42,703 nt of DNA from a virus. The stretch covers positions 1 through 42,703 of the IMG/VR virus record IMGVR_UViG_3300026533_000008; one strand, given 5' to 3'. The position numbers and the translations under genes were made by a program. Positions within the stretch are counted from its first letter, which is position 1. Every line of letters begins with the position of its first letter. This document shows positions 3,320 to 42,703 of this stretch, piece by piece. The notes under the pieces are model-generated. The model was not told the DNA's origin. It was given only the letters and a program-made list of their open reading frames with translations, and did no database searches.

Positions 3320-3713
3320 AATGTGTAGACATTGTGGTAAGGAGTCAATGGATTTAACATTATATAGAAAATGTAATACAAAATTAGGTTATGCTAATGA
3401 ATGTAAAGAGTGTATAAATAGAATTAATAGGGAGCTATGGAAAGACCCTAAGAGTCCTAGGAAGAAATTTCAATTAGCTACTAGATATAAATGTACTCCA
3501 GATGAATATACAGAACGTATGGCTTCTTCTAATTGCTGTGAGATATGTGGTAAGATTAACGAGCTTTGTTATGACCATTGCCATACTACAATGAAGTTCA
3601 GAGGTGTTATATGTAGGTCATGTAATAAAGCTATAGGACAATTAGGTGATACAGCAGACTCTGTATTAAAAGCATATAAGTATTTAGAAAGGTTTGAAGA
3701 TGAAGCGAAATAG
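3306..3713 (+). CDS. HNH homing-type endonuclease, endonuclease VII-like (copy 1)
   Basis: A free-standing nuclease of about 135 aa. The N-terminus carries a zinc-ribbon-like CRHC...CKEC pair and the C-terminal half a recombination endonuclease VII-type treble clef: CEICG, then LCYDHCH (catalytic His), then FRGVICRSCNKAIGQLGD. It is probably a mobile intron-less homing endonuclease that cuts DNA near its own insertion point. The start at 3306 is chosen because AGGAG at 3292-3296 lies nine bases upstream and the encoded head matches the sister copies; ATG 3321 and upstream start codons remain possible. The gene overlaps the DNA polymerase end by 14 bases and the nrdA start by 14 bases. It is clearly paralogous to the gene at 5427, on the other side of nrdA. 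Confidence 0.88.
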   Translation: MKPTRMCRHCGKESMDLTLYRKCNTKLGYANECKECINRINRELWKDPKSPRKKFQLATRYKCTPDEYTERMASSNCCEICGKINELCYDHCHTTMKFRGVICRSCNKAIGQLGDTADSVLKAYKYLERFEDEAK

Positions 3714-5436: not shown

Positions 5437-5837
5437 TACTTAGAAAGTGTAGGATTTGTAGTAAAGAAGCAATAACAGTTGAGGATTTAGAAGGCTTCAC
5501 TAAGAATAATAAGAGTCCTTATGGTAGAACTACTTTATGTAAGCCTTGTGGTAGTATTCAAAGTAGTAAAGCCCCTAGACATTCCAGATATAAGAATGTA
5601 TATGGAATAACTGCAGATGAGTATAAACGATGTATGGCGACAGCAACCTGTTGTAATAAGTGCGGCAGTATAGATAGCTTATGTTATGACCACGACCATA
5701 ATAAAAAAGGTATTGTAGCTTTTAGAGGTGTCTTATGTAGACAATGTAATCAAGCTATAGGACAGTTAGGTGATACAGAAGAAGGTATCTTACAAGCATT
5801 ACAATATCTAAGGAGATATAATGAGCAATTTAATTAA
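5427..5837 (+). CDS. HNH homing-type endonuclease, endonuclease VII-like (copy 2)
   Basis: A 136-aa paralogue of the nuclease at 3306, with the same plan: CRIC...CKPC head, then CNKCG, LCYDHDH and FRGVLCRQCNQAIGQLGD. It starts inside the last codons of nrdA (10-base overlap) and its own last codons overlap the nrdB start at 5821 and contain that gene's ribosome binding site AAGGAG. A GTG at 5418 is an alternative start; ATG 5427 gives the N-terminus most like the sister proteins. Its role is presumably homing next to a conserved RNR gene. It is most likely free-standing rather than an intron product, because both flanking RNR genes look intact. Confidence 0.88.
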   Translation: MSVVLRKCRICSKEAITVEDLEGFTKNNKSPYGRTTLCKPCGSIQSSKAPRHSRYKNVYGITADEYKRCMATATCCNKCGSIDSLCYDHDHNKKGIVAFRGVLCRQCNQAIGQLGDTEEGILQALQYLRRYNEQFN

Positions 5838-6828
5838 AGGAGAGTCTAAAATTTTTAAGCCTTTCCATTATCCCTGGGCGTTTGAAGCCTACAGATTACA
5901 TGAAAGTAGTCATTGGTTAGCTACGGAAATACCACTAGCTGATGATGTACAGGATTTTGGTAAAGCTTCTAAAGAAGAACAAGTATTTATAGAGAATGTT
6001 ATGAAGATGTTCACTACTAATGATATAGCAGCCTCACAGGGCTATACAGGGCTTCTACGTATCTTTAAGCCAACAGAGGTAGTTATGATGCTTTCAAGCT
6101 TTGCAGCACGAGAGGCATGTCATATAGATGCTTATAGTCTATTTACAGAGACATTAGGTTTTGATGATGATATATACAAAGACTTCTTAGATATACCAGA
6201 GATGTCAATCAAAACTGATTACCTAGATAAAGCTAAGGTTAAGAAATACGAAGACTATAAGTCAGTAGGTTTATCTGATATACAAGTGGATAAACAATAC
6301 AGAAGAGATGTTGCTAGGATGTTAGCAGTATATGGAGGATGCTTAGAAGGTATTGAATTGTTTGCACAGTTTGCTATGTTATTACAATATCAGTTTGACA
6401 ATAAATACAAAGGTTTATGTCAGATAGTAGACTATAGTATCAAAGATGAATCACAACATCAGATTAATAATAGTAAGTTATTTAGAACTTTTGTAGCTGA
6501 GAACAGTGATATTTGGGATGACGACTTAAAGTATGATATATATCAAGCAGTACGAGAGGTTGTAGCTCAAGAAGAAGTTATGATTGACTACCTTAATCCT
6601 CCTCATATGGATAATGAGGTATGTAAACAGTACGTTAAGTATCAAGCAGACAATGCTTTAAAACTTTTAGGTATGAAACCTAATTACAATATAATAGATA
6701 ACCCTCTTCCTTTTATGGATGAAGTGTTAGGTGGTGTTAGTCTTGTAAACTTCTTTGAGAATAGAGTTACAGATTATGGTAAAGGAACTCTTACAGGTTC
6801 TTGGGATAAATTAAAAGGAAAGAAATAA
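5821..6828 (+). CDS. nrdB: Ribonucleoside-diphosphate reductase small subunit, class Ia
   Basis: Holds the di-iron/tyrosyl-radical cofactor that activates NrdA. The ferritin-like fold ligands can be placed by analogy with E. coli NrdB: Asp68 (TTNDIAASQG), Glu98 and His101 in REACH, the radical Tyr105 three residues after that His, Glu176 (CLEGIELF), then Glu210 and His213 in DESQH. Length 335 aa is usual for phage R2 proteins. Translation starts at ATG 5821 behind a strong AAGGAG that is part of the upstream nuclease gene. The MazG-like gene follows two bases after the stop. With nrdA it makes a complete aerobic enzyme; no glutaredoxin or thioredoxin gene is seen nearby, so the host presumably supplies electrons. 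Confidence 0.96.
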   Translation: MSNLIKGESKIFKPFHYPWAFEAYRLHESSHWLATEIPLADDVQDFGKASKEEQVFIENVMKMFTTNDIAASQGYTGLLRIFKPTEVVMMLSSFAAREACHIDAYSLFTETLGFDDDIYKDFLDIPEMSIKTDYLDKAKVKKYEDYKSVGLSDIQVDKQYRRDVARMLAVYGGCLEGIELFAQFAMLLQYQFDNKYKGLCQIVDYSIKDESQHQINNSKLFRTFVAENSDIWDDDLKYDIYQAVREVVAQEEVMIDYLNPPHMDNEVCKQYVKYQADNALKLLGMKPNYNIIDNPLPFMDEVLGGVSLVNFFENRVTDYGKGTLTGSWDKLKGKK

Positions 6829-6829
6829 T

Positions 6830-7300
6830 ATGCAAATAGCTAAATGGAATTACACAAGAAACAATACAAACTTTAACCCTGAGGTTGAACACAGAATGCT
6901 GAGAGAAGAAGCATTAGAATTTAAGTATGGGATGGATATGTATTTCGTAAGAGATACTATAAGTAACTTAGAGCATAACGAACAGGCAAGAGTTACCGCT
7001 ATAATTGAGATGGTAGATGCCTGGGCTGACTTCTATTTTGTATTATCTGGGAGTATCTATAAGTCATTAGGTACTCACGAAGCTTTCGACTTCGACCACT
7101 ACAGAACACAGGAGCGTTATATGTATAATTTATTAACAACTGATTTAGAAATACCTTGTGATGTACTTGATAACTGTCTTCAAGTTGTTATAGATGCTAA
7201 CAACGCTAAAGGAGCTAAGAAGCTTGATGGTAAGGTACAGAAAGGTGATAACTGGAAAGACCCTAAAGATGTTATAGCAGCTATCTTGGAGGTACTATAA
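6830..7300 (+). CDS. MazG-like nucleotide pyrophosphohydrolase
   Basis: A 156-aa all-alpha protein with the metal-binding arrangement of the MazG/HisE superfamily: EEALE at residues 26-30 and EMVDAWAD at 60-67, where paired Glu and Asp side chains would hold Mg2+ for hydrolysis of a nucleoside triphosphate to monophosphate and pyrophosphate. The C-terminal segment ANNAKGAKKLDGKVQKGDNW resembles the Asn-Lys-rich tail of phage members that also act on nucleotides. The context, between nrdB and a DUF5664 gene, fits nucleotide-pool control. The substrate (dUTP, dGTP, ppGpp or other) cannot be read from the sequence. It shares its stop with the next start (TAATG). Confidence 0.78.
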   Translation: MQIAKWNYTRNNTNFNPEVEHRMLREEALEFKYGMDMYFVRDTISNLEHNEQARVTAIIEMVDAWADFYFVLSGSIYKSLGTHEAFDFDHYRTQERYMYNLLTTDLEIPCDVLDNCLQVVIDANNAKGAKKLDGKVQKGDNWKDPKDVIAAILEVL

Positions 7301-7659
7301 TGAAAACATCTTTAGGAAGCTTAAAGAAGTTTGACTCAGGTAAGCCTATGGTAAGCTTGGTAGAACCTAAGTTTATCTTAGGGATTGCTGATATACTTAC
7401 ATTTGGGGCTGAGAAGTATGGTAAGAATAACTGGAAGTTAGCTAAAGAAGATGACATGGCTAGATACAAAGATGCTTTAATGAGACACCTTATGAGCTAC
7501 CTTGATGGTGAGCTGTTAGACCCTGAGAGTGGTAAACCTCATCTACATCATATTGGTTGTAACTTAATGTTCTTAGAGTACTTTGATAGACAACCAAAGA
7601 CTCATGGACTTGAAGAGTTCATACACGAGGTACAATATGGGAATGCTGGAGATGTCTGA
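7300..7659 (+). CDS. DUF5664-type protein (dATP/dGTP diphosphohydrolase N-terminal-like)
   Basis: A 119-aa protein with the hallmarks of the DUF5664 family: a start of the form KKFDSGKPMVSLVEP, then LTFGAEKYGKNNW, RYKDALMRHLMSYLDGE, DPESGKPHLHHIGCNLMFLEYF. The conserved His/Asp/Glu residues would form a metal-bound all-alpha pocket like that of MazG proteins. Pfam associates this family with dATP/dGTP diphosphohydrolase activity in some phages; whether that reaction applies here is inference. It lies in the same transcript as RNR and MazG-like genes, overlapping the former by the TAATG junction and the next small gene by 23 bases. Confidence 0.82.
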   Translation: MKTSLGSLKKFDSGKPMVSLVEPKFILGIADILTFGAEKYGKNNWKLAKEDDMARYKDALMRHLMSYLDGELLDPESGKPHLHHIGCNLMFLEYFDRQPKTHGLEEFIHEVQYGNAGDV

Positions 7660-7765
7660 GAAAATATACCTAACGAATAAAGAGAAAGTTGTAATGATGT
7701 GTCACAATGGAGATATTCCCGAGGCACTTCTAAATAAGATAGTAGATACCTACTGGAAAGGATAA
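7637..7765 (+). CDS. Small hypothetical protein, 42 aa
   Basis: A 42-residue frame overlaps the end of the DUF5664 gene and stops five bases before the exonuclease gene. ATG 7637 is preferred because CGAGG lies six bases upstream; in-frame ATGs at 7643 and 7652 are alternatives. The peptide is helical in character (SEKIYLTNKEKVVMM, then ALLNKIVDTYW) and has no recognised domain. Overlap with neighbouring real genes on a compact transcript is its main support. Confidence 0.55.
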   Translation: MGMLEMSEKIYLTNKEKVVMMCHNGDIPEALLNKIVDTYWKG

Positions 7766-7769
7766 GACA

Positions 7770-8555
7770 ATGGCTATAGCATTAATAGACGCAGATAGTT
7801 TTCTGTATAGATGTGGGTTCGCCCTAGAGGAAGAGTTAGATGATGGTACATTCTTTGTAGACTTTGATAACGCTAAAGATTACCTAGATGGGTTTATTGA
7901 TGGTGTATTGTTTAATACAGACTGTGATGACTATGAACTATGGCTTACAGGTAAAGATAACTTTAGATACAAAGTAGCTTCAGACACCTTACCAGATGCC
8001 TATAAATACAATAGGAAAGACTCTAGGAAACCTGATAAGTTTGATGAGATGTGGAACTACTTAGTGAAAGTACATAAAGCTAAGGTAACACCCTTCTGTG
8101 AAGCAGATGACGTTTCGGTTACTAAGAAGACCGAAACTCCTAACGAATATATATTATGTGCTATTGATAAGGATGTATTGTATCAATCAGAAGGTACACA
8201 TTATAATTATGGTAAGGATGAATGGGTTACAGTATCGTTGGAAGAAAGTATATACTATGCTTACTTACAGACTCTTACAGGTGATGTTACAGATGGATAC
8301 AAAGGTTGTAAGAACATAGGGCCTGTTAAGGCTAAGAAGCTCCTAGGAGAGCCTGGAGAGTTTAATGAACGTCAACTATGGGCTAGAGTCTTAAAGGCTT
8401 ACAGAGCTGCTAAGATGCCTAAAGACTATGCACTTGCTACTATGAGATTAGCACAGATGCACCAACTAAAGAGAGATACCAAAGGTAAACTTAAACTTAA
8501 CCTTTGGACTCCACCAAGCAAAGGAGAATGTATGATAGATGCATTACCATTTTAA
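7770..8555 (+). CDS. 5'-3' exonuclease, FEN family (T7 gp6-like)
   Basis: Removes primers and degrades host DNA in T7-type phages. The 261-aa protein has the FEN nuclease landmarks: Asp7 and Asp9 at the N-terminus (LIDADSF), the central acidic cluster CEADD at 110-114, DKD at 133-135, and a helix-hairpin-helix-type DNA-binding segment GDVTDGYKGCKNIGP at about 170-185 with the family Asp residues. The second part of the usual EADDxA motif reads EADDVSVTKK, slightly unusual. T7 also has its exonuclease gene after the polymerase. The gene is preceded by AAAGGA and its stop overlaps the following small Cys-rich gene (TAATG). Confidence 0.9.
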   Translation: MAIALIDADSFLYRCGFALEEELDDGTFFVDFDNAKDYLDGFIDGVLFNTDCDDYELWLTGKDNFRYKVASDTLPDAYKYNRKDSRKPDKFDEMWNYLVKVHKAKVTPFCEADDVSVTKKTETPNEYILCAIDKDVLYQSEGTHYNYGKDEWVTVSLEESIYYAYLQTLTGDVTDGYKGCKNIGPVKAKKLLGEPGEFNERQLWARVLKAYRAAKMPKDYALATMRLAQMHQLKRDTKGKLKLNLWTPPSKGECMIDALPF

Positions 8556-8650
8556 TGAGAGTCTTATGTAGACTATGTGGTCAAGAGAAACCAGGTAATT
8601 GGTATACATTGATATGTGATGATTGTAATAAAAAGATAAACCCTCTGTAA
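8555..8650 (+). CDS. Tiny zinc-ribbon-like protein, 31 aa
   Basis: A 31-residue frame begins in the TAATG that ends the exonuclease gene. It contains two CxxC pairs (CRLC near residue 5 and CDDC near residue 21) separated by 12 residues, enough to bind one zinc ion. Its last codons form the left arm of the terminator at 8638-8684. Its function is unknown. The cysteine spacing and stop/start overlap argue that it is real rather than a chance frame. Confidence 0.55.
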   Translation: MRVLCRLCGQEKPGNWYTLICDDCNKKINPL

Positions 8651-8684
8651 CTCCCGATAACTTGGGGGCTGCAGGGGGTTTTCT
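8638..8684 (+). terminator. Hairpin terminator after the replication operon
   Basis: The arms AAACCCTCTG (8638-8647) and CAGGGGGTTT (8672-8681) pair fully if one U-G is allowed. An inner stem CTCCC/GGGGG lies within the loop. The outer stem runs into TTTT. It overlaps the end of the 31-aa gene and sits just before promoter P1 at 8695, so it insulates the replication operon from the structural operon. Confidence 0.75.
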
Positions 8685-8694
8685 GCATTAGACT

Positions 8695-8707
8695 GGACAT
8701 ATTAGGA
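8695..8707 (+). promoter_or_regulatory. Phage RNA polymerase promoter P1 (structural genes)
   Basis: The 13-base core GGACATATTAGGA occurs identically at four places, always on the + strand and always at a gene-block boundary. By analogy with T7-type promoters (TATAGGG) the last part, TATTAGGA, would hold the transcription start at the first G of AGGA. This copy directly follows a terminator and precedes the structural genes. It shares the upstream bases TTAGA-T with P2. Confidence 0.8.
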
Positions 8708-8962
8708 AAAAGAATGGATAGAGAAGGTTAAAGTATATAAAGACTCTTTAAGACTCTTAAGGAGATTCTTCATTATGAAGCAACCTTAACTACCTTAAAC
8801 ATTCCTTTATGATTAACATCGAGCTTTCATGTATCGCTGTTAGGATTATACAAACAAGGCTAGAAAAGTACAGAGTTTCTGTAGTCTCTCTCAGGTTAAC
8901 TAAAGACTGATTGATAAAACTACTATAATATAATAATAACATACCCTTATAAGGAAATAATA
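8708..8962 (+). other. Long leader between P1 and the first structural-region gene
   Basis: No gene is supported here (the gene-free stretch is 8651-8962). It holds a five-codon frame (MDREG) directly after P1 at 8713, a direct repeat AAGACTCTT at about 8741 and 8752, a perfect hairpin TACAGA-GTT-TCTGTA around 8870, and the 18-base element TGTATCGCTGTTAGGATT at 8830-8847 that returns at 31491-31508. A TATAAT at about 8923 has no good -35 partner. AAGGA upstream of 8963 serves the next gene. Confidence 0.6.
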
Positions 8963-9133
8963 ATGTTAAAACAAATAATACAAGAATTGGATGTATTGTA
9001 TCCAGATAGGTTTAGTCCAGAGACTGACCAATTTAAACAAGGTGAAATCTATGGTGCTATAAGAGTAATCAGATTTTTAAAAGATAAATACTTAGCTGAA
9101 GAGTTTATGGTATTACCGAAAGGAAAGGTGTAA
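8963..9133 (+). CDS. Small hypothetical protein, 56 aa
   Basis: First gene of the structural transcript. ATG 8963 has AAGGA eight bases upstream. The protein is amphipathic helical (LKQIIQELDVLYPDRF, then IYGAIRVIRFLKDKYLAEEF) without Cys or membrane segments. It has no family I recognise. T7-like phages often have one or two small genes of unknown use between the exonuclease and gene 7.3, which is where this one lies. The gp7.3-like gene begins five bases after its stop. Confidence 0.6.
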   Translation: MLKQIIQELDVLYPDRFSPETDQFKQGEIYGAIRVIRFLKDKYLAEEFMVLPKGKV

Positions 9134-9138
9134 GCTCT

Positions 9139-9711
9139 ATGGGTTGGGGAAGTAAATTTAAAAAAGCAGTGAAGAAAACTAAGAAGGTTATTAAGAAAAT
9201 TAATAAACCTATAAAGAAGGTTACTAAATCTGTTAGTAAGCCAGTTAAGAAGGCAGCTAAGAAAACATTACCAAAAGCTGTTGTTAAAGCATCTAGTAAA
9301 GCTGTCAGTGATACTAAGAAAACTGTAAATAAAGCTGTACGTGATACAGAAAAAGAAGGCTCTAGGTTTGTTAAGTCTGCTGGTACTGCTCTAGGTAAAG
9401 CTGGAACAGATATATGGAAGACTGTAGAGAAAGCTGGACAAGATGTTAGAGGCTTAATGAATCCAGTGGGTGATTACTTATGGGATGAAGGTATGGATAA
9501 AGTAAGTGAAGTAGGTGAATCATGGGGTAATACATTAACAGGTGGGCCTAAAGGTATAGATACAACATATGCTGGTGATGCTTATGCAGAACGTACAGCT
9601 AAAGGCCTATTAGCAACTGATGATACACCTACAGGTCTTAAAGGACTTAAAATTAAAAGGAAAGATAAAGATAGTGCTTCTACTAGCCAACGATTATCTA
9701 CTGGAAGGTAG
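9139..9711 (+). CDS. Tail assembly / virion protein, T7 gp7.3-like
   Basis: A 190-aa protein with an extremely Lys-rich N-terminal half built on KK-V/I repeats (KKAVKKTKKVIKK, KPVKKAAKK), closely resembling the start of T7 gp7.3 (MGKKVKKAVKKVTKSVKK), a minor tail protein needed for adsorption. It is longer than T7 gp7.3 (99 aa); the extra part, from about residue 60, is alanine/glycine-rich with GTDIWKTVEKAGQDV. Position directly before the portal matches T7. The basic part may bind DNA or the inner portal surface, which is inference. Confidence 0.72.
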   Translation: MGWGSKFKKAVKKTKKVIKKINKPIKKVTKSVSKPVKKAAKKTLPKAVVKASSKAVSDTKKTVNKAVRDTEKEGSRFVKSAGTALGKAGTDIWKTVEKAGQDVRGLMNPVGDYLWDEGMDKVSEVGESWGNTLTGGPKGIDTTYAGDAYAERTAKGLLATDDTPTGLKGLKIKRKDKDSASTSQRLSTGR

Positions 9712-9717
9712 TATTAG

Positions 9718-11202
9718 ATGGCTAAACAAGAATTAGACCACAAAGGTCTACAGGCAATCTCAACTGTTAAAGCAGCTTATGATACATTAGATAAAGACCG
9801 TATAACAGTAATTGATAAAGCAGTTGACTGTGCTAAGGTTACTATTCCTAGTGTATTAGTTGCTTCATCACATACAGAGCAAACAGCTCTTGTAGATACA
9901 TTCAACTCTATAGGTGCTAGAGCAGTTAACAACCTTAGTAGTAAATTACTATTATCGTTACTACCTCCATCTACACCATTCTTTAGGTTAAACCCTAGTG
10001 ATGATGTATTGGCTGAAGGTGGTACTACAACAGAGATTGAGAAACAACTAGCAGCCCTAGAGTTACGTATTGTCTCTGAAGTAGAACGTAAAGCATATAG
10101 GTCAACAGTATTCGAAGCATTTAAATCTCTAATAGTTACTGGTAATTCTTTACTATTATTAGAAGAAGGTACAATGAGTATGTTCAAACTAGATAGATAT
10201 GTTATTAATAGAGACTTCTCAGGTAATGTGCTTGAGATAATCCTAAAAGAAACTATATCTGGTAGAGAACTACCTGAAGACCAACAAGAAGGTTTAGAAG
10301 CTGATGAACTTAAGAAACCTGTTGATGTATATACACGTTACTATTCAACTGGTAATGGTAACTGGTTAAGTTATCAAGAGATTAAAGATGAGGTTATTGA
10401 AGGTTCTGAAACAACCTTCAAAGATGATACACTACCTGTAATTCCATTAAGATGGTCAAAGATTTCAGGTGAGAACTATGGTCGTGGTATGGTTGAAGCA
10501 TTCCTAGGGGACTTAAGAAGTCTTGAAGGTTTAACACAACTACTATTAGAACATACATCAATAGCTGCAACTACTATCTTTGGTGTAAAACCAGGGAGTG
10601 TATTGTCAGTAAGTGACCTTGAGGGTGCTGAGAATGGTGGTGTTATCATTGGAGACTTAGAGCGTGATGTATCTGTATTAAGAGTCGACAAGGGTTCTGA
10701 TATGCAATTACCGATGCAGATGTCACAAGAGATAACACAGAGAATCTCAATAGCCTTTATGTTACAATCAGGTGCTGTAAGAAACTCTGAGAGAACAACA
10801 GCAGTTGAAGTACAATACTTAGCTAAAGAACTTGAAGATACTCTAGGTGGTATCTATAGTGTAATTAGTCAAGAGTTTCAACTACCATTAGTTAAGTTAA
10901 TACTTAATGATTTAAAATATGACTTAGAAGGTTCAGTAGAGATATCTGTTGTAACTGGTTTAGAGTCTTTAGGTCGTAACAGTGATTTACAGAAACTAAG
11001 AGAATTAAATGCTATGATAGCTGAGGTTAATCCTCAATATCTAACACAGTATCTTAAAGTAGATGAATACTTAAAGAGAATAGCAACCGCAGTAGGTGTA
11101 CAGAATACAGAAGGTCTATTTAGGTCTGATGAAGAAGTACAACAACAACAAGCAGCACAAGCTCAAGCTCAAGCAGCCCCAGACCAACAACAACAAGGAT
11201 AG
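9718..11202 (+). CDS. Portal (head-tail connector) protein, T7 gp8-like
   Basis: Forms the dodecameric ring through which DNA is packaged and ejected. At 494 aa it is near T7 gp8 (536). Family-like segments are visible: LSSKLLLSLLPPSTPFFRL around residue 80, LIVTGNSLLLLE around 140, RWSKISGENYGRGMVEAFLGDL around 245, and RTTAVEVQYLAKELEDTLGGIYS around 365, all typical of Autographiviridae portals. The C-terminus is a low-complexity Gln/Ala tail from about 465. The gene is followed four bases later by a small basic gene and then the scaffold. Confidence 0.95.
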   Translation: MAKQELDHKGLQAISTVKAAYDTLDKDRITVIDKAVDCAKVTIPSVLVASSHTEQTALVDTFNSIGARAVNNLSSKLLLSLLPPSTPFFRLNPSDDVLAEGGTTTEIEKQLAALELRIVSEVERKAYRSTVFEAFKSLIVTGNSLLLLEEGTMSMFKLDRYVINRDFSGNVLEIILKETISGRELPEDQQEGLEADELKKPVDVYTRYYSTGNGNWLSYQEIKDEVIEGSETTFKDDTLPVIPLRWSKISGENYGRGMVEAFLGDLRSLEGLTQLLLEHTSIAATTIFGVKPGSVLSVSDLEGAENGGVIIGDLERDVSVLRVDKGSDMQLPMQMSQEITQRISIAFMLQSGAVRNSERTTAVEVQYLAKELEDTLGGIYSVISQEFQLPLVKLILNDLKYDLEGSVEISVVTGLESLGRNSDLQKLRELNAMIAEVNPQYLTQYLKVDEYLKRIATAVGVQNTEGLFRSDEEVQQQQAAQAQAQAAPDQQQQG

Positions 11203-11205
11203 ATA

Positions 11206-11334
11206 ATGGTAAATGTTAGAAAATTAGTTAAAGATACAGACTATAAACCAAGAGACAAGAAGAAAGAAAATGGTAGTAATACTATTGACTTAACACCAAA
11301 GAAAGTAGTAGCTAAAAAAGCTGCTGCTAAATAG
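11206..11334 (+). CDS. Small basic hypothetical protein, 42 aa
   Basis: A 42-residue, Lys-rich frame between portal and scaffold. It begins MVNVRKLVKDTDYKP and ends in a Lys/Ala run (KKVVAKKAAAK). It starts four bases after the portal stop, with AAGGA immediately upstream (11196-11200), and stops 23 bases before the scaffold start. The composition is like other small virion-associated or DNA-binding peptides, but no family is recognised. Confidence 0.6.
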   Translation: MVNVRKLVKDTDYKPRDKKKENGSNTIDLTPKKVVAKKAAAK

Positions 11335-11357
11335 TAATAACACCGTAGGAGGATACA

Positions 11358-12179
11358 ATGGAAGACATACAACAAGAACAACAATTAACAGAACATGACC
11401 AAGCAATGGTAGATTTAGTAGATAATAAAGCAGCTGCAGCTAATGGGCAAGCAAACCCAGATGAAGCTCCAGAATATGTAGAGCCTACAGAACCTATACC
11501 ATTACCTGAGAAGTTCAAATCACAAGAAGATTTAATCAAAGCATACAATGCACTTGAACAGAAACTTCACAGTAACCAGTCAGAATCTGAACCAGAACTC
11601 GAGGCTTCAACAGAGGATGTTCACGAACAACCTGAAGCGACAACGGACAATTCTAGTAAAGATACGGATGAAGTTACAGTAGATGTTAATACAATAGTTG
11701 ATAGTATTGTTAGTGGTAATACTGAAGTAACACCTGAGATGAAGGACGCTTTAATAGCTGGTGGTATGACAGAGGCTACAATCGAATCATTGATTAATGT
11801 TGGTAATGTAAAGGTTACTGAGATTAAGAATGATTTGTATTCTACTGTAGGTGGTGAAGAGTCTTATGATTCTTTAATGGAACAAGCTGGGGATGTATTA
11901 TCAGATGATGAGATTGACTCATATAACGAGGTATTATCTTCAGGAAACCTTGGAGCTATGAAGTTAGCTTTAAGAGGCCTAGCAGCTGCTGTAAACCCTT
12001 CAGGAGATACACAGCAATACACTAGACCAGTAAGAGGTTCGAGCACTCCACAAGCTCCACAGGGTAAATCATTCGATGATAAAGGGGAGATGTTTAAAGC
12101 AATGAATAACAAGCTTTATGGCAAAGACCCAAGTTATACTAGAATGGTAGAGAATAAAATAGCAATGAGTAACTTCTAG
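11358..12179 (+). CDS. Capsid assembly scaffold protein, T7 gp9-like
   Basis: A 273-aa acidic protein directly before the capsid gene, as in T7 (gp9, 307 aa). It begins with a Gln/Glu-rich disordered stretch, has PIPLPEKFKSQEDLIKAYNALEQKL near residues 48-72 (a signature-like scaffold motif), a long acidic linker, and a C-terminal helical and basic end (KMFKAMNNKLYGKDPSYTRMV type). Scaffold proteins guide procapsid shell formation and leave before DNA packaging. Translation is supported by AGGAGG at 11347-11352. Confidence 0.93.
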   Translation: MEDIQQEQQLTEHDQAMVDLVDNKAAAANGQANPDEAPEYVEPTEPIPLPEKFKSQEDLIKAYNALEQKLHSNQSESEPELEASTEDVHEQPEATTDNSSKDTDEVTVDVNTIVDSIVSGNTEVTPEMKDALIAGGMTEATIESLINVGNVKVTEIKNDLYSTVGGEESYDSLMEQAGDVLSDDEIDSYNEVLSSGNLGAMKLALRGLAAAVNPSGDTQQYTRPVRGSSTPQAPQGKSFDDKGEMFKAMNNKLYGKDPSYTRMVENKIAMSNF

Positions 12180-12240
12180 GTAGTCTATACCTCGAGGTTT
12201 ATAACTTAAAATAGACACAATATAAAACAGGAAAACAAAC

Positions 12241-13185
12241 ATGGCAATTACTAACGTAGGTGTATTAACAAAAGACGGAGCAGGTGATTCAAAAGCACTA
12301 GCATTAAAGATTTATTCAGGTGAAGTATTAAACGCATTTGACAAAAAGAACTTAGCATTAGATTTAATTAAAGTTAGAACAATAGCTTCTGGTTCAAGTT
12401 CTCAATTCCCAGTTACAGGAAACATTGCTGATACTTCAGTTGCTACACATACTCCAGGTGCTGATGTATCTACAACAGATATGTTAGTGTCTGAAAGATT
12501 AATTGCAATCGAAGACTTACAATATGTATCAACATTCGTAGATAACTATGAAGAAAAGATGGCACACTTTGAAGTTAGAGGTGAGTTAGCTAAGAGAAGT
12601 GGTGAGTCACTAGCTACTAAGATTGATAAACAAGCATTTGGTGTTGTATTAGCTGCAACTCAAGCTACAGGTGTTGCTAATCAACCTAATGGTTCTGAAG
12701 TAAACAATGATGTTATTGAAACTGGAGCTACTTCTGAAGAGAAGGGTGATGCTATTATGGCTTCTATCTTTGCTGCTGTATCTATCTTAGATGGTAACGA
12801 TGTTACTGGTGATAAGATTTTCATTACTAACCCAACTAACTACTACAATATTGTACAATCTCAAAAAGTTATTAACAGAGATTTCAATGGTGGTGATAAT
12901 GGTAGTATTGCTAAAGGTAATGTTATCGAAGTTGCTGGTGTTAAGATTATGATGTCTAACCACATGGGACAAGGTACTGCTGTAGATGTAGGTGGAGTTA
13001 ATAAGAAACTTCAAGGTTTACTATTCACACAAGATTGTGCTGGTGTAGTTAAGCTTATGGACGTTGCTTCTGAGTCTAACTATATTCCTGAGAAACTAGG
13101 AACATTAATGACAAGTTCATATGCTCTTGGTATGGGAATATTAAACCCAGGTGCAAGTGTTGCTATATGTGGCGGAGACGCTTAA
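12241..13185 (+). CDS. Major capsid protein, T7 gp10-like
   Basis: A 314-aa HK97-fold shell protein (T7 gp10A is 345). Recognisable segments are the start MAITNVGVLTKDGAGDSKALALKIYSG-like head, SSSQFPVTG near residue 52, DLQYVSTFVDNYEEKMAHFEVR near 95-120, and the C-terminal IPEKLGTLMTSSYALGMG. Codon use looks strongly biased to A/T-ending common codons, as expected for the most abundant protein. No second frame for a 10B-type frameshift is apparent. A near-perfect terminator follows the stop, so this gene would be favoured in transcript abundance. Confidence 0.96.
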   Translation: MAITNVGVLTKDGAGDSKALALKIYSGEVLNAFDKKNLALDLIKVRTIASGSSSQFPVTGNIADTSVATHTPGADVSTTDMLVSERLIAIEDLQYVSTFVDNYEEKMAHFEVRGELAKRSGESLATKIDKQAFGVVLAATQATGVANQPNGSEVNNDVIETGATSEEKGDAIMASIFAAVSILDGNDVTGDKIFITNPTNYYNIVQSQKVINRDFNGGDNGSIAKGNVIEVAGVKIMMSNHMGQGTAVDVGGVNKKLQGLLFTQDCAGVVKLMDVASESNYIPEKLGTLMTSSYALGMGILNPGASVAICGGDA

Positions 13186-28925: not shown

Positions 28926-29327
28926 ATGAAATATTGTAAGACATGTGAGAAGAACAAAAAGAACAAATACTTTTATGCTACAAATAGCAGTAAATGTAAA
29001 GAGTGTATATCAGAATACAACAAGAACTATAACAAAGGTGCTATACAGCCTAAAGGTGATGCAGGATATGTGTATGTAATTACTAACCCAGCTTGGGATG
29101 GATACTATAAAATAGGATTGACTATAAACCTTAGTAAGAGGTTAAGTACATACCAAACAGCATCACCACTTAGAGACTATAGTTTCTTAACTACAAAGAG
29201 TGTTGATGATATGCATATAGCAGAGAGAAAGGTACTGGAGGAACTTAAGAAGTTCTATGATGTTAAAGGTGAGTGGGTTGTAGCTAGTAAAGCTGAACAC
29301 ATAATACACCTAGTGGAAGGATTGTAA
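28926..29327 (+). CDS. GIY-YIG endonuclease with CxxC...CxxC head
   Basis: A 133-aa nuclease with the GIY-YIG core: GYVYVITNPAWDGYYKIGLT at residues 41-60, followed by RLSTYQ and an ERKVLEEL helix whose Glu would be catalytic. Residues 4-29 hold a CKTC...CKEC pair of the same type found at the head of the three HNH proteins of this genome. It is probably a free-standing homing endonuclease inserted between small and large terminase genes. Its TAATG stop/start overlap with the large terminase couples the two. Confidence 0.86.
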   Translation: MKYCKTCEKNKKNKYFYATNSSKCKECISEYNKNYNKGAIQPKGDAGYVYVITNPAWDGYYKIGLTINLSKRLSTYQTASPLRDYSFLTTKSVDDMHIAERKVLEELKKFYDVKGEWVVASKAEHIIHLVEGL

Positions 29328-33697: not shown

Positions 33698-34165
33698 ATG
33701 AAAAAGATAACAAAGAAACAACTATTAATTAACAACCCAGTATTTAAAAGAATGATAACTACTATAGCTAATAACTATAATGTATTACGAGCTATAAATA
33801 AGAAGTTACCATTCAGTGATAACAGTGATTGTATTTCTGTATTAGCTACCGCTATAAACAATTGTAAAGATGAATTCAATGTATCAGTAAGCTTCATAAC
33901 AAAGAACCTTGGTATTGACCAAAGAACGATGCAAAACATCCTTGGAGAAACATACAGAATACAACAAGTTAAAAGGAATCCTAACAGTTTCCTAGATGAT
34001 AGAATGTATTATGCTAGAGCTGTTGTATCTAATAGTATGACTGCACAAGAAGTTGCAGATACTACAGGGTATGCTATAATTACTATTCGTAAATGGGTAA
34101 AAGATTACAGAGCATATGGTAGTGATACTATGAGAGCTGTAGCATTTAGTAGAAGGAGTTTATAA
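33698..34165 (+). CDS. Early DNA-binding protein with helix-turn-helix
   Basis: A 155-aa basic protein. The C-terminal part (about 108-145, SNSMTAQEVADTTGYAIITIRKWVKDYRAYG) has the spacing of a helix-turn-helix recognition unit. The N-terminal part (KKITKKQLLINNPVF...FITKNLGIDQRTMQNILGETYRI) may hold a second one at 68-90. It is probably a DNA-binding regulator or nucleoid-interfering protein acting early. Its TAATG stop/start overlap with the next gene suggests a joint function with that 473-aa protein. AAGGAA lies eight bases before the ATG. Confidence 0.7.
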   Translation: MKKITKKQLLINNPVFKRMITTIANNYNVLRAINKKLPFSDNSDCISVLATAINNCKDEFNVSVSFITKNLGIDQRTMQNILGETYRIQQVKRNPNSFLDDRMYYARAVVSNSMTAQEVADTTGYAIITIRKWVKDYRAYGSDTMRAVAFSRRSL

Positions 34166-35586
34166 TGAATGATATATTTGGATTACAAGAGATAACAGTA
34201 GACCAAGCACGCAAACTATGGGAAGCTAAATATTTAGTGAAGGTTATAGAGCCTGATTATAATATTAATCATTGTTTTGGGTGTCCTCCTGGACAATGGG
34301 CTAGTGGTGCTAAATACTATTTATCTGATAGTGTTACAGCTTATGATGACTACAAACTATTTAAAGCCCCAGTAGACTCTATAGACAAGCTTAAGGCTCT
34401 TTATATTTCAAAGCTAACTTCTCATAGGCTTTCAGACTTATTAGATATTAAAGTAGCTAGGTATAATCTTTGTACTAATCCTTTAGGTACTACAAGTGAT
34501 AAGATGATATATAATGGCCCTAGTGGTAACTTCTATGTTGGTAAAGAACAAAAACTACCTATCAAACTTGGTAAGGTTATAAAACAGTTACTACCAGAAG
34601 CCTCACCACTAGAGATAGAAGGCTTTGTAAGTACTTGGAAGAAAGCCTATACAGTTGATACATCTACAGTAGAGCTTAGAGATGATATTGTATCTATATA
34701 TGATGAAGGTGGTTCTGTAGGTGGTAGTTGTATGAGTGGTTATGGTGATAGACTAGAGATATATGAAGATTTAGGCTGTAAACTGTTATGTAGCTTTGAA
34801 GCTAATGGAATTACTCTTAATGCTAGAGCTATTGTATGGTATAATAACCTAGAAACAGTAGATGGGGCTAAGGATGTAGGTATTCTTGTAGATAGAATCT
34901 TCTATAATACTGAGAATGCTAAACTTACTATACAGAAGTATGTAGAAGAGCAAGGCTGGAAGTTTTTATATGAGAATGATGACATACCTCATGTAATTAC
35001 CAAAGAATCTGTAGGCAGCTATGCTGAAGTTCCTTATATTGATACAGTATATAATGTACTGACTGTTGATGGGTTCTATAAACTTACAACAGAAACTTGC
35101 TGTGATGATAGATTACAACAAACTGATGGTTCTAGTGAGAGTTTATGTGGTATCTCTGAGATGCTAAATGAGGATTATATTTACTGTATAGATTCTGATG
35201 ATAGACAGTACCAAGATGACTGTTACTATTGTGAAACTGATGACGAGTGGTATTGTAGTGATGAGTATTTAGTATATGTATATGGGAGAGGATATTACTT
35301 AAAGGATGATGACAACCTAGGGTTCTTTGAAGATACCAAGGAGTACTTCCATCACTGTGATAACAATACAGTATATACAACAGTAGACGGTGAACACTAT
35401 AGTGACTGTATGGACTTAATATACTGTGAAGATATAGATGGTTGGCTACATGAAAATGATTGTTACTATTATGTAGAAGACCTAGCTGTATATTATTCAA
35501 CAGATAGTGACCTACTAGACTACGAAGGTAATTACTACAGCTCACAAGAAGCTATAGATGAAATAAAGGAAAACAAAGATGATTAA
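34165..35586 (+). CDS. Early protein with phage SCM-type domain and Cys/Tyr/Asp repeats
   Basis: A 473-aa protein with two clear parts. Residues about 170-270 contain IYDEGGSVGGSCMSGYGDR, then ARAIVWYNN and VDRIFYNTENA, an arrangement I associate with an uncharacterised domain of other phages (a conserved SCM followed by a RA-x-W and DRI-Y strand). Residues about 335-465 are extremely rich in Asp, Tyr and Cys, with irregular units such as YCIDSDDRQYQDDC, YYCETDDEWYCSDEY and LIYCEDIDGWLHENDC, suggesting metal-binding ribbons of about 20 residues. The net charge is strongly negative, a common trait of DNA mimics. No function is proven. The gene overlaps the next one by eight bases. Confidence 0.75.
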   Translation: MNDIFGLQEITVDQARKLWEAKYLVKVIEPDYNINHCFGCPPGQWASGAKYYLSDSVTAYDDYKLFKAPVDSIDKLKALYISKLTSHRLSDLLDIKVARYNLCTNPLGTTSDKMIYNGPSGNFYVGKEQKLPIKLGKVIKQLLPEASPLEIEGFVSTWKKAYTVDTSTVELRDDIVSIYDEGGSVGGSCMSGYGDRLEIYEDLGCKLLCSFEANGITLNARAIVWYNNLETVDGAKDVGILVDRIFYNTENAKLTIQKYVEEQGWKFLYENDDIPHVITKESVGSYAEVPYIDTVYNVLTVDGFYKLTTETCCDDRLQQTDGSSESLCGISEMLNEDYIYCIDSDDRQYQDDCYYCETDDEWYCSDEYLVYVYGRGYYLKDDDNLGFFEDTKEYFHHCDNNTVYTTVDGEHYSDCMDLIYCEDIDGWLHENDCYYYVEDLAVYYSTDSDLLDYEGNYYSSQEAIDEIKENKDD

Positions 35587-36463
35587 CAAAACAATACTAG
35601 AGGTACTTAAAGCCTCTCAACAACAATTACATAAAAGCCTAAAGACTATAGATGGAATCCAAACATACCCTATGTACTCTATATATAGTAAAGGAGACCC
35701 TAAGGTTTTAAAGCCAATGTTGTGTGTTCACTTAGATACAATAAATACTTGTAGTCTTAAGGTTGATAAGGAGCTACAGGACAGTGATTTTATTACAACT
35801 GGTGGTATTGTTAGAGTGAATCCTAACAGCTCTTTAAACTGTCTTGGTGGTGATGATAGGGCTGGTGTATGGATTGCTTTACAACTAATAAAGTATATGG
35901 AAGAAACTCAAGACTTTAAGTATGATATAGGTTTCTTCCTAGATGAAGAGATTGGTTGTATTGGGAGCTCAAGCTTCATTACAAATACATTAGATTATAA
36001 TACTAGTTGTTATATTGGACTAGATAGAAGAAGCTCTCTAGGAGTTCATGAAGTAGCTATATATGGTGATGATAACACAGAGCTTATAGATATTTTTGAG
36101 AGTCTTGACTATAAACTAGAGATGGGTTCTATAACTGATGCAGCAACCCTAGCAACTCAAGAGATAGCTTGTGTGAACTTATCAGTAGGTTATGACTTTG
36201 AACACACAAAACAGGAGGTACTGCATCTTGAGTGTATGTTATATACTTTAAAGGTCTTACAAGAGCTTCAGCTTGAAAGTAAAGAATACCCTAGCGATTA
36301 CCTAGGGAGTTACTATAATAGCCCTAGTGCCTCTCTAAGGTACACTGAGGATGTATATGAAGACCACGAGATACTTAGAGAGTTTCTATTCTCTATGGGT
36401 TATGACCCTGATGATATTATAGAAGAACATTACAATGTACTAGGAGGTATTTTAAATGTATAA
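35579..36463 (+). CDS. M20/M28/M42-type metallopeptidase-like protein (early)
   Basis: A 294-aa protein with the ligand order of two-zinc aminopeptidases/deacylases: HLD at 51-53, GGDDRAG at 90-96 (bridging Asp), LDEEIG at 121-126 (catalytic Glu and metal Glu), LDRR at 148-151 (metal Asp) and FEHTKQE at 208-213 (last His). Together these support a working hydrolase, either a peptidase or an amidohydrolase. Such enzymes are uncommon in T7-like phages. It is translationally coupled to the Cys/Tyr/Asp-repeat protein (its ATG lies inside the last codons) and followed by a 46-aa gene that overlaps its end. The substrate is unknown. Confidence 0.78.
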   Translation: MINKTILEVLKASQQQLHKSLKTIDGIQTYPMYSIYSKGDPKVLKPMLCVHLDTINTCSLKVDKELQDSDFITTGGIVRVNPNSSLNCLGGDDRAGVWIALQLIKYMEETQDFKYDIGFFLDEEIGCIGSSSFITNTLDYNTSCYIGLDRRSSLGVHEVAIYGDDNTELIDIFESLDYKLEMGSITDAATLATQEIACVNLSVGYDFEHTKQEVLHLECMLYTLKVLQELQLESKEYPSDYLGSYYNSPSASLRYTEDVYEDHEILREFLFSMGYDPDDIIEEHYNVLGGILNV

Positions 36464-38125: not shown

Positions 38126-40669
38126 ATGATTGGAACATTAGATAAACAGAAACAACTAGAGTTTGATGCTTATGATATAGCTTCCATTAGAGCCAAAGAA
38201 GAATTCCTAAGGGTAACTGAAGGAGAGCAAGGAGCTGAAACTAATGAAGGTATTGTATTTATCAAGAAGTTGTTACCACCAGTAACAGATAAGATTAATG
38301 AGTACCTAACGTCTAAAAGCTTACGAGGAACTTCCTTCCAAACTAGAGAACCTGTTATGGACTATCTAGGGAAAGAGAGCAACCTAGCTTATATGGTATT
38401 ATCTGCTATCCTTAATGGAACTTTGAGTTCCTTTGGTGGTAAGTACAAACCATATACTGTACCACTATTAACAGTTGCTAGGTTGGTACTTAATAGTATC
38501 AAACAAGAATACAAGATAGAAAGGTTTAAGAATGAAGCACCAAGACTTGATGTATATATCGACAAGAAATACAAAAAGCTTAGTGTAAGAAGACGAACTA
38601 ATAAGAAGATGATGTTAGGTAAGAAGAAGTTAGCATTAGGAAACCCTGATAACATACAAGGATTTACTCTAGGAGTTAACCTAGTTGATGCTGTAATTAA
38701 GTCTGATGTAGGCTTCTGTAAGATAGAGGTTATACGAGAAACAGCTAAACGTAAAAGAACTATGTTGACCTTAACAGATGCAACAATAGAGATTATACAA
38801 AGAATGAATGATATTGGGCCTCTATTCCACTATAGTTACCCTATAATGGTAATACCACCTAAAGAGTGGACTGGTTTTAGAGGTACTGGAGGATATCATG
38901 CTGGTATCTTAGATATTGACTTAGTTAAGATGCATAATGATAAAGCTAACAAGAGAATGGTTAGAGGTTACTTTGAGAACCATCCAGAATTCACCAAGAG
39001 ATATACAAATATTGTAAATGCTGTTGGTAGAGTTCCTTGGAAGATAAATCAAAGAGTACTTAAGGTTCTGGAAACAGTTTATGATAAACATCTAGTAGAT
39101 TATACCAAAGAATATTCACTTATTGGTGGTATACCTGATGATGACCTTCCTAATCCTTATGATTTAGTTCCTATCGTTGAATTTGACCCTGATAATACAC
39201 CACCTTATGTAGAGTATCGTGATAAAATCACAGCTCTTGAAGATAAGTTTGATGTATTGAAGTCCAAAGGACTAGTGGTTAAGTTAGCATTATCAACAGC
39301 TAAGAAATATAAAGACTATGACAAGATATACTTTAGCTATCAAGTAGACTTCAGAGGTAGATTGTATCCAATACAACCACACTTGAATCCACAAGGAGCT
39401 AAAGTAGTTAAGAGTCTGTTATTATTCGCTGAAGGGAAACCTTTAGATACAGATAAAGCAGTTGAATGGTTCAAGATACATGGTGCTAACCTTTATGGTT
39501 ATGATAAACTATTGTATCCTGATAGAATACTAAAGATTGAGGAGATGAATGATGAGATTTGTAAGATTGCAGATGACCCCTTGGTTAATCGTGAATGGAC
39601 GGAAGCAGATGAGCCTTTCGCATATCTTGCTTGGTGCTTTGAGTATAGTGATTGGATTAGAAATCCTAGTGCTTTTATCTCACATATTCCAATAGCCCTT
39701 GATGCGACATGCTCGGGTATACAGCTATATTCTGGACTTATGAAAGATAAGAAAGGTGCTTTAGCAGTTAATGTACTACAGGCAACTGATAGTGAAGGTA
39801 ATAAATGTATTGCTGATATATATGGTGAGGTTGCAGCTTGTGGTAATAGATACCTAGAGACAGGTGACTATGAGAAGAACATACACTATACAACAAAGGA
39901 CAAAGTAAGTCACACAGTAAACTTAGAGGCTTTAGGTAACTCAATGATGGGTAGACTAAACCGTAAGATTGCTAAGAGAAATACTATGACCTTCCCCTAT
40001 AATGTATCTACTTTTGGTATGAAAGACCAAGTGCTTACAGATATTATAGAACCATACAAGAATACGAAAGACCAGTTCTGGCTTGAAGGAGCTGAAGACT
40101 GGCAGGTAGCAACTCTAGTAGCTAAACTGAACTATAAAGGTATCAGTGAGGTTGTAGAAGGAGCTGTTGTATGTAGAGACTTCCTTAAGTCATTAACACG
40201 AGAGGTTGTTGAGAAAGGGGCGTTTATACAATACAATACACCTATATTTGGATTCCCTGTTGTACATCGTATAGTTAAATATAATGTATCAAGAGTTACA
40301 ACAGCATTAGCCAAGCTTACTATAAGAACACCAACAACTGTTCTTGATGGTACTAAGATGGTTAATGGTATTGCACCAAACTACATACATTCCTTAGATG
40401 CAACCTTGATGTTCAGAACAGTTGAGAGGTTGCTGGCAAGTGGTGTATCTAGCTTTGCTCTAATACATGATAGTTATGGGGTTCATGCAGCAGATACAGA
40501 GAAACTAGCCCATGAGGTTAGGGAATCATATATAGAGTTATTTGAAGATAATCCATTGTATGATTTTACAGAGCAGACAGCACCTTTTAAGGCGTTGGAA
40601 GCTAAGGAGTTACCGATAGGTGACCTAAACATACAGGAGGTACGAAACAGTGAGTACATATTCAGTTAA
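38126..40669 (+). CDS. Single-subunit DNA-dependent RNA polymerase, T7 gp1-like
   Basis: The 847-aa enzyme (T7 is 883) that transcribes middle and late phage genes from its own promoters. The four catalytic residues can be placed: Asp526 in ALDATCSGIQLYSG, Lys617 and Tyr625 in AKRNTMTFPY, and Asp782 in LIHDSYG; the Lys-Tyr spacing of eight equals that of T7. GIAPNYIHSLD near 750 corresponds to the T7 GIAPNFVHSQD segment just after the promoter-specificity loop, which differs here as expected for a distinct promoter. The C-terminus ends YIFS where T7 has FAFA. P4 drives it directly and its stop overlaps the next gene (TAATG). Confidence 0.97.
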   Translation: MIGTLDKQKQLEFDAYDIASIRAKEEFLRVTEGEQGAETNEGIVFIKKLLPPVTDKINEYLTSKSLRGTSFQTREPVMDYLGKESNLAYMVLSAILNGTLSSFGGKYKPYTVPLLTVARLVLNSIKQEYKIERFKNEAPRLDVYIDKKYKKLSVRRRTNKKMMLGKKKLALGNPDNIQGFTLGVNLVDAVIKSDVGFCKIEVIRETAKRKRTMLTLTDATIEIIQRMNDIGPLFHYSYPIMVIPPKEWTGFRGTGGYHAGILDIDLVKMHNDKANKRMVRGYFENHPEFTKRYTNIVNAVGRVPWKINQRVLKVLETVYDKHLVDYTKEYSLIGGIPDDDLPNPYDLVPIVEFDPDNTPPYVEYRDKITALEDKFDVLKSKGLVVKLALSTAKKYKDYDKIYFSYQVDFRGRLYPIQPHLNPQGAKVVKSLLLFAEGKPLDTDKAVEWFKIHGANLYGYDKLLYPDRILKIEEMNDEICKIADDPLVNREWTEADEPFAYLAWCFEYSDWIRNPSAFISHIPIALDATCSGIQLYSGLMKDKKGALAVNVLQATDSEGNKCIADIYGEVAACGNRYLETGDYEKNIHYTTKDKVSHTVNLEALGNSMMGRLNRKIAKRNTMTFPYNVSTFGMKDQVLTDIIEPYKNTKDQFWLEGAEDWQVATLVAKLNYKGISEVVEGAVVCRDFLKSLTREVVEKGAFIQYNTPIFGFPVVHRIVKYNVSRVTTALAKLTIRTPTTVLDGTKMVNGIAPNYIHSLDATLMFRTVERLLASGVSSFALIHDSYGVHAADTEKLAHEVRESYIELFEDNPLYDFTEQTAPFKALEAKELPIGDLNIQEVRNSEYIFS

Positions 40670-41917: not shown

Positions 41918-42049
41918 ATGAACGAATTTGAAGATAGAGACCAGATAGCAAGAGAACTTATGTATAACGATAGGTTCTTACCACACCATGAAGCCCTTAC
42001 AAAGGCACAACATATATTAGATAACTTACAGGAGATACAATGTGGATAG
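41918..42049 (+). CDS. Small hypothetical protein, 43 aa
   Basis: A 43-residue acidic helical peptide (MNEFEDRDQIARELMYNDRF, then HHEALTKAQHILDNLQEI). AAGGAAAAA provides a ribosome binding site, and its stop overlaps the GTG start of the primase-helicase by eight bases. No family is recognised. Confidence 0.6.
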   Translation: MNEFEDRDQIARELMYNDRFLPHHEALTKAQHILDNLQEIQCG

Positions 42050-42703
42050 ACAAGATACAGCGGAATTTAGCTACCATACTTCTTGTGATGACTGCGGGTC
42101 TTCTGATGGTTGTGCGGTATATGATAACGGTAACACCTATTGCTTTGCTTGTGAGAGCTACACTTTTGGGGACAGTGAACAAGTTGATAGACGACCTAAA
42201 ACAGGCAAGACTATGGCTTTAATAACTTTTGAACCTCAAGTACTAGCCGCAAGGAAGATACCTGAGAGTATCTGTAAGCAATACAAATATGGGATAGGTA
42301 CTCTAGGAGGTAAGGTATGTCAAGTAGCTAACTACTATAATAAAGATAGACAACCAGTAGCCCAGAAGATTCGATTCGCTGATAAAACCTTCAAGTTTCT
42401 TGGGGACACTAAAGACGCTATGATGTATGGACAACAATTATGGTCATCAGGTGGAAAGAAATTAACAATAACTGAGGGAGAGATAGATGCTCTTTCAGTT
42501 GCAACAGCTTTTGATGGTAAATACCCAGTTGTATCACTATCATCAGGAGTACAAAGTGCAAAGAAGGAATTAGCTCGACACTTAGAGTGGATTTCAAGCT
42601 TTGAAGAAATATATCTATGGTTTGATAATGATGAGCCTGGTAGAAAAGGTGTAGAAGAGTGTATTAATATACTCCCTATAGAGAAGGTTAGGATTATAAG
42701 ACA
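42042..42703 (+). CDS. DNA primase-helicase, N-terminal part (T7 gp4-like), GTG start
   Basis: The 5' part of the gene whose remainder is at 3-1100. GTG 42042 is chosen because GGAG lies seven bases upstream and the resulting start VDRQDTAEFSYHTSCDDCG matches the T7 gp4 opening (a short acidic segment, then YH and the first CxxC). The zinc finger is CDDC...CFAC. TEGEIDALSV and, further on, the DNDEPGRKG region are the TOPRIM metal sites. An ATG at 42040 overlaps this GTG in another frame and would make only a 60-residue chance peptide. ATG 42213, in frame, corresponds to the T7 gp4B internal start and would give a form without the zinc finger. Confidence 0.93.
   Translation, partial: MDRQDTAEFSYHTSCDDCGSSDGCAVYDNGNTYCFACESYTFGDSEQVDRRPKTGKTMALITFEPQVLAARKIPESICKQYKYGIGTLGGKVCQVANYYNKDRQPVAQKIRFADKTFKFLGDTKDAMMYGQQLWSSGGKKLTITEGEIDALSVATAFDGKYPVVSLSSGVQSAKKELARHLEWISSFEEIYLWFDNDEPGRKGVEECINILPIEKVRIIR
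42568..42703. repeat. Terminal overlap, right copy
   Basis: Matches positions 1-136 with one difference (G at 42577, T at 10). It joins the two halves of the primase-helicase in frame. Confidence 0.93.

Follow-up and report, generated by a model that had tools for sequence, protein, structure and literature searches.

Organisation of the peptidase locus

The window, i.e. the whole stretch of viral DNA analysed here (42,703 nt, IMG/VR record IMGVR_UViG_3300026533_000008), is a T7-like phage genome, in which a single-subunit RNA polymerase, connector, major capsid, tail, internal virion protein and terminase match phage families. The regions 1-1100 and 42042-42703 are the two halves of a single primase/helicase gene in the sister phage L016; the window, thus, probably represents a whole genome, circularly permuted and opened within that gene. 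The phage also has the supply genes for ribonucleotide reductase and ThyX. Two endonuclease VII/HNH-type genes lie beside the DNA polymerase and nrdA/nrdB genes, and a T5orf172 (GIY-YIG-like) gene precedes the terminase gene; all of these are probably free-standing homing endonucleases. A metallopeptidase-like gene and an upstream partner gene are located between the terminase and RNA polymerase genes. The features are listed below.

3276-3713, 5418-5837 and 28926-29327: two endonuclease VII/HNH-type genes and the T5orf172 gene
33698..34165, + strand: HTH-like small protein, overlapping the partner gene by 1 nt
34165..35586, + strand: partner, an SC-domain protein of 473 aa, overlapping the peptidase gene
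34555..35064, + strand: SC domain of the partner, about residues 131-300; residues 131-275 are confidently modelled, with a predicted GNAT-like topology
34726..34734, + strand: S188-C189-M190 motif of the partner, invariant in 58 relatives
35152..35583, + strand: C-terminal Tyr/Cys/Asp-rich repeats of the partner, about residues 330-473, read from the sequence and of low model confidence
35579..35586, + strand: 8-nt overlap of the partner and peptidase genes, with AAAGGA at 35565-35570 upstream of the peptidase ATG
35579..36463, + strand: M20/M28/M42-clan metallopeptidase core protein, 294 aa, ATG start
35729..35737, + strand: HLD of the peptidase, H51 (metal ligand) and D53, invariant in 43 relatives
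35852..35857, + strand: GGDD, D92 (bridging ligand; invariant) and D93 (conserved in at least 90%)
35945..35950, + strand: EE, E123 (general base position) and E124 (metal ligand), invariant
36023..36025, + strand: D149, metal ligand position, invariant
36203..36205, + strand: H209 of FEHT, metal ligand position, invariant
38126..40669, + strand: T7-type single-subunit RNA polymerase (PHROG 414, E 2.6e-179), downstream of the pair

The peptidase ORF begins within the last codons of the 473-aa partner gene. The initial annotation had described the peptidase as an early gene coupled to this Cys/Tyr/Asp-repeat protein, and both points are supported, the former by gene order. The overlap and the AAAGGA preceding the ATG indicate that the two genes are translationally coupled. 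Since the gene order puts the pair upstream of the phage RNA polymerase gene, it was assigned to the early region, and the early timing of both genes is thus a prediction from their position. A promoter scan of the region gave a number of sites no higher than in shuffled sequences.

The HTH-like protein upstream of the partner showed a weak HTH match (E 0.0022, below the cut-off). Its homologue in L016 matches HTH_17, and it was not conserved in distant relatives. L016 has the same gene order as the window (HTH, partner, peptidase, ThyX and RNA polymerase). The block of HTH-like, partner and peptidase genes (33698-36463) diverges much faster between the two phages than its neighbours do: identities were 34% (HTH-like protein), 37% (partner) and 48% (peptidase), versus 72% (RNA polymerase), 81% (SSB) and 90% (helicase).

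Active site and predicted fold of the peptidase

The 294-aa protein matched PHROG 4191 'peptidase' with E 5.7e-31. A DNA-level search found no relatives, and neither did a search of viral contigs with the single peptidase sequence; the viral-contig relatives were obtained by profile search. Forty-three of them, from independent viral contigs and 20-46% identical, were aligned. H51, D53, D92, E123, E124, D149, D187 and H209 were invariant in this 43-row alignment, in which the mean column identity was 18%. The invariance of the active-site residues at this level of identity argues that the motif set is not due to chance. It had been proposed that every metal-ligand position of the M20/M28/M42-type enzymes is kept (HLD, GGDD, EE, D and FEHT), and that divergence of the ligands in homologues would speak against an intact site; the alignment bore out the former and showed no trace of the latter. 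The protein is most likely an active two-metal hydrolase of the exopeptidase or N-deacylase type, its metal binding and catalysis being predicted from the conserved site.

The predicted model of the peptidase had a pLDDT of 86 and a pTM of 0.82. Foldseek with this confident model, the structural check that had been suggested, returned PepT, M42 aminopeptidases and DapE catalytic domains with a probability of 1.00, indicating that the predicted fold is kept. The five metal-ligand positions and the Glu base on an alpha/beta core, by which the M20/M28/M42 clan is recognised, are all present in the sequence and predicted model of the phage protein. At the family level, Pfam M42 (PF05343) matched residues 69-149 only (E 1.5e-8, 34.5 bits against a cut-off of 23.2), and Pfam M28 (PF04389) matched with E 2.4e-5 (24.6 bits against 21.3), with a compact spacing free of insertions. 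Pfam M20 (PF01546) remained under its cut-off (14 bits against 24.6), and the NCBIfam PepT-like model TIGR01883 far under its own (41 bits against 274). Overall, the phage peptidase resembles M42 and PepT in sequence more strongly than M28.

In alignments, the distance between E124 and H209 was 85 residues in the phage peptidase versus about 204 in 3gb0, and, judged by this spacing, the M20 lid (dimerisation) domain is absent. M42 enzymes have a long insertion that separates the first His from the bridging Asp; it is absent as well, H51 and D92 being only 41 residues apart. Since both the lid and the long insertion are missing, the phage protein is a naturally bare catalytic core.

Distribution of the peptidase among phages

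A tblastn search with the window peptidase yielded 394 phage records, and a search with a Klebsiella homologue yielded 381. The records of isolated phages include 231 Klebsiella, 51 Pectobacterium, 42 Vibrio, 10 Escherichia and 4 Shigella phages, and are mostly phiKMV-type Autographiviridae. Annotated neighbourhoods placed the peptidase in at least five genera of this family (Drulisvirus, Kotilavirus, Maculvirus, Phimunavirus and Kantovirus). Phages of Lactococcus, Enterococcus, Bacillus, Brevibacillus and Thermus carry it as well, as do huge phages. The annotation of Pseudomonas phage C171 (Kantovirus) divides the peptidase between two successive ORFs (5272-6074), owing either to real decay or to a frameshift or an error in sequencing.

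Published annotations (PMC4411677 and PMC6115819) already use 'putative peptidase' for this protein. KP34p11 is so listed in the former, and in the latter the peptidase alone has an assigned function among the six early ORFs conserved in PhiM1-like phages. The statement in the initial annotation that such an enzyme is rare in T7-like phages is, thus, contradicted by the 381-394 phage records, the spread over at least five Autographiviridae genera and the existing 'putative peptidase' labels. Other phage metallopeptidases (SprT-like and ArdC-like) are given in a jumbo-phage survey (PMC7824862), in which a keyword search did not reveal the type found in the window. While the peptidase alone is already annotated in relatives, what appears new is its pairing, the breadth of the pair and the unnamed partner family.

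The partner protein

The partner's SC domain is not covered by any Pfam family, and all PHROG families matching it are of unknown function. Partners of the window type share the motifs SCM, RA(I/L), DRIY and PYxD, with S188, C189, M190, Y200, R221 and D293 invariant across 58 relatives. A second form, found in Gram-positive-type phages, has the motifs W-SCH, G-Y-G-SYMLD and R-YP. In a profile-profile comparison, the two forms aligned with their motifs in register at E 0.001 and a low probability score of 20%; they are likely to be related. Judged by the searches, the family, in which the SC(M/H) motif is invariant, is nearly restricted to phages and has no name. In Klebsiella phage QL, a hypothetical gene of 660 aa overlaps the start of the peptidase gene.

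The Tyr/Cys/Asp-rich repeats of the window partner sit where many relatives have CxxC zinc-knuckle tails. Tails containing at least two CxxC were counted for 83 of 170 partners and for 68 of 135 peptidases, and the occurrence of such tails in both proteins suggests that partner and peptidase have similar binding targets.

In the AlphaFold model of the partner, residues 131-275 were confident, with block means mostly of 80-93, and the remainder was poor. Foldseek against the PDB gave a best E of 0.02 (none below 0.001), with TM scores to the target mostly of 0.3-0.5. The best 50 matches were mainly GNAT N-acetyltransferases and Leu/Phe-tRNA-protein transferase, which has a GNAT fold as well. 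The order of elements in the core (strand, two helices, three strands, helix, strand) fits GNAT, and the model places the SC motif in the loop joining the first two helices. The (R/Q)xxGxG/A acyl-CoA loop was absent at the expected place in the partner alignment, neither Pfam nor the PDB gave a sequence match between the partner and a GNAT, and PF00583 had no match in the window. On balance, the predicted core is somewhat more probably GNAT-like than otherwise. Two other readings of the SC motif were discarded. Homology to PcfJ was considered for its similar conserved Cys motif, and PF14284 had no match in the window; for a cysteine protease, Foldseek returned GNAT-type folds instead.

Pairing of the peptidase and the partner

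Of the 96 peptidase ORFs, 76 had an SC domain no more than 300 nt away, with few exceptions on the same strand, and in most cases it preceded the peptidase. The non-redundant set comprised 71 loci with 1,502 other genes; in it, 58 of the 71 SC genes occupied one of the two slots flanking the peptidase, as compared to a mean of 7.3 and a maximum of 18 in 10,000 trials of random placement. A functional link with the repeat protein had been put forward as a possibility in the initial annotation, and this adjacency makes it the best-supported part of that proposal. In the reverse search from the partner, whose loci share a few contigs with the forward set and are not fully independent of it, the peptidase was adjacent in 39 of 60 loci. 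The partner stood alone in the other 21 and the peptidase in 19 of 96, some of them at contig ends; neither protein, therefore, strictly depends on the other in all phages.

The numbers of isolated phages were equal for the two proteins in Klebsiella (231), Vibrio (42), Escherichia (10) and Shigella (4). By tblastn, the partner was found in 10 Pectobacterium phages versus 51 for the peptidase; this gap arises because the partner has diverged there, and profiles, for which one of two Pectobacterium partner sequences served as a seed, do detect it. In a tree of 121 peptidases, paired members were present in every large clade and unpaired ones were scattered. The pair occurs in genomes as small as those of 43-kb podoviruses and as large as those of 735-kb huge phages. 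No fusion of peptidase and partner was seen in the set examined (170 partners and 135 peptidases), and no family recurred as a third component in more than two of the 131 flanking genes. The peptidase and the partner thus look like one widespread two-gene unit of phages, of which no description was found in the open-licence papers searched.

The arrangement varies in some of the largest genomes. In the 735-kb phage LR756501, the unit is locally multiplied, with four partner genes around two peptidase genes within 8 kb (5110-13029), and in two other huge phages (L141 and L155) a partner gene without a peptidase gene lies directly ahead of a DnaK-type chaperone gene. Bacterial genomes were searched non-exhaustively by short peptide patterns. 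The sole confirmed match was Clostridium citroniae, with both genes adjacent, and the sole plasmid match was pMM35_02 of Vescimonas fastidiosa, with both genes side by side. On this plasmid sequence (1-7384), an AcrIIA9-family anti-CRISPR (Cas9 inhibitor) gene is located four genes away from the pair and a gene for a PcfJ-domain protein is nearby, a setting resembling a counter-defence region.

Proposed role of the pair

The fast change of the block together with the fixed active site fits a host-facing role. In phiKMV-like phages, the GNAT Rac triggers cleavage of the host RNA polymerase alpha subunit (PMC7552054), a precedent for such phages shutting down the host via protein modification, and a review (PMC7824862) extends Rac-type shutdown to possible phage-encoded peptidases. 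On the grounds of the host-facing divergence and the Rac precedent, we tentatively favour the reading that the peptidase is the catalytic half of a conserved phage unit for early joint modification and hydrolysis aimed at a host target. The partner and the lid-less metalloenzyme would be produced together early in infection and may form a physical complex. The partner, with its SC(M/H) domain, probably a divergent GNAT fold without the usual CoA loop and often followed by zinc knuckles or degenerate repeats, would bind or covalently modify a host target such as a protein N-terminus, a lysine or an aminoacyl or peptidyl substrate. The metalloenzyme would strip an acyl group, an aminoacyl group or an N-terminal residue off the same class of target, and host transcription, translation or defence would thereby be switched off or redirected. 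The invariant active site, the predicted fold, the pairing, the CxxC tails of both proteins and the AcrIIA9-family gene near the plasmid pair also speak for this reading. Against it count the weak GNAT matches and the missing CoA loop, the loci with only one of the two genes, the lack of a fusion and the lack of a recurring defence-related family among the flanking genes.

The main rival, which we regard as doubtful, is a counter-defence hydrolase that destroys a small defence product (a peptide toxin or an N-acylated or aminoacyl signal), with the partner serving, without catalysis of its own, as a sensor or adaptor whose SC domain and zinc knuckles bind the substrate or a protein of the host. 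The early position, the fast divergence of the block, the lack of a CoA loop in the partner, the AcrIIA9-family protein near the plasmid pair and one ArdA match among the 131 flanking genes would all suit it. However, no defence or counter-defence family was recurrent among these 131 genes, and the host range is very broad for a single defence target. A more specific proposal, which we hold to be unlikely, is a phage-wide writer/eraser pair, in which a CoA-loop-less GNAT-fold transferase would tag host proteins early and the lid-less hydrolase would remove or trim the tag; the transfer could depend on aminoacyl-tRNA, as in Leu/Phe-tRNA-protein transferase, or proceed via the invariant Cys.

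Peptide salvage, in which a PepT-like aminopeptidase supplies phage protein synthesis with amino acids released from peptides of the host, would agree with PepT-like tripeptidases being the closest cellular relatives and with the other supply genes of the window phage. Since it leaves the conserved, phage-restricted partner and the shared zinc tails unexplained, and the usual M20 lid is missing, we consider it distinctly unlikely. The tight coupling of the genes and the similar tails of the two proteins might also reflect a maturation enzyme that trims one of the phage's own proteins, perhaps the Cys/Tyr/Asp tail of the partner itself. Members of the clan are, however, mainly exopeptidases or deacylases, the tails vary widely and are missing in some pairs, and the genes lie in the early and not the structural region, which makes this reading very unlikely. 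Inactive homologues are known in metallopeptidase families (reviewed in PMC11266112), but even very diverged relatives keep every ligand and the base unchanged, and a pseudoenzyme that merely scaffolds the partner is highly improbable.

Comparison with known systems

The pair is one of few early phage units that combine a readable enzyme with a very wide spread, and hundreds of isolated phages, many Klebsiella phages among them, carry it. Through the pairing, the 'putative peptidase', so far a lone label, becomes part of a two-protein system that can be tested, and large 'hypothetical proteins' of 43 to 735 kb phages can be assigned to a family with a candidate fold. Should the partner prove to be a GNAT-like transferase, the Rac precedent, which concerns a single genus, would be widened to a general strategy of phages; the writer/eraser pair, if true, would be a post-translational takeover system common to T7-like, Gram-positive and huge phages.

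The PepT-like M20B tripeptidases (3gb0 and 3rza) and the M42 aminopeptidases have the fold and all metal ligands in common with the phage protein. Unlike the PepT-like M20B enzymes, however, the phage protein has no lid, and it also lacks the long M42 insertion. The best overall match in size was given by the DapE constructs of the catalytic domain only (4op4, 4onw and 4h2k; TM to target 0.57-0.59), but these are one domain cut from a larger enzyme, whereas the phage family is naturally lid-less and comes with a partner protein. The 'putative peptidase' of Drulisvirus and Phimunavirus (KP34p11 and PhiM1_10; PHROG 4191) is homologous to the window protein (about 28% identity) and, as in the window, has an early location before the replication genes and a large coupled upstream gene. 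This upstream partner is labelled only 'hypothetical protein', and the pairing is not discussed, in the sections of PMC4411677 and PMC6115819 concerned. Rac, also an Autographiviridae protein, is tied to proteolysis and offers a model for modifying host proteins early in infection. It is a clear GNAT with an acetyl-CoA pocket, whereas the window partner is only probably one; the Rac gene follows that of the RNA polymerase, and the Rac phages have no recognised protease (PMC7552054).
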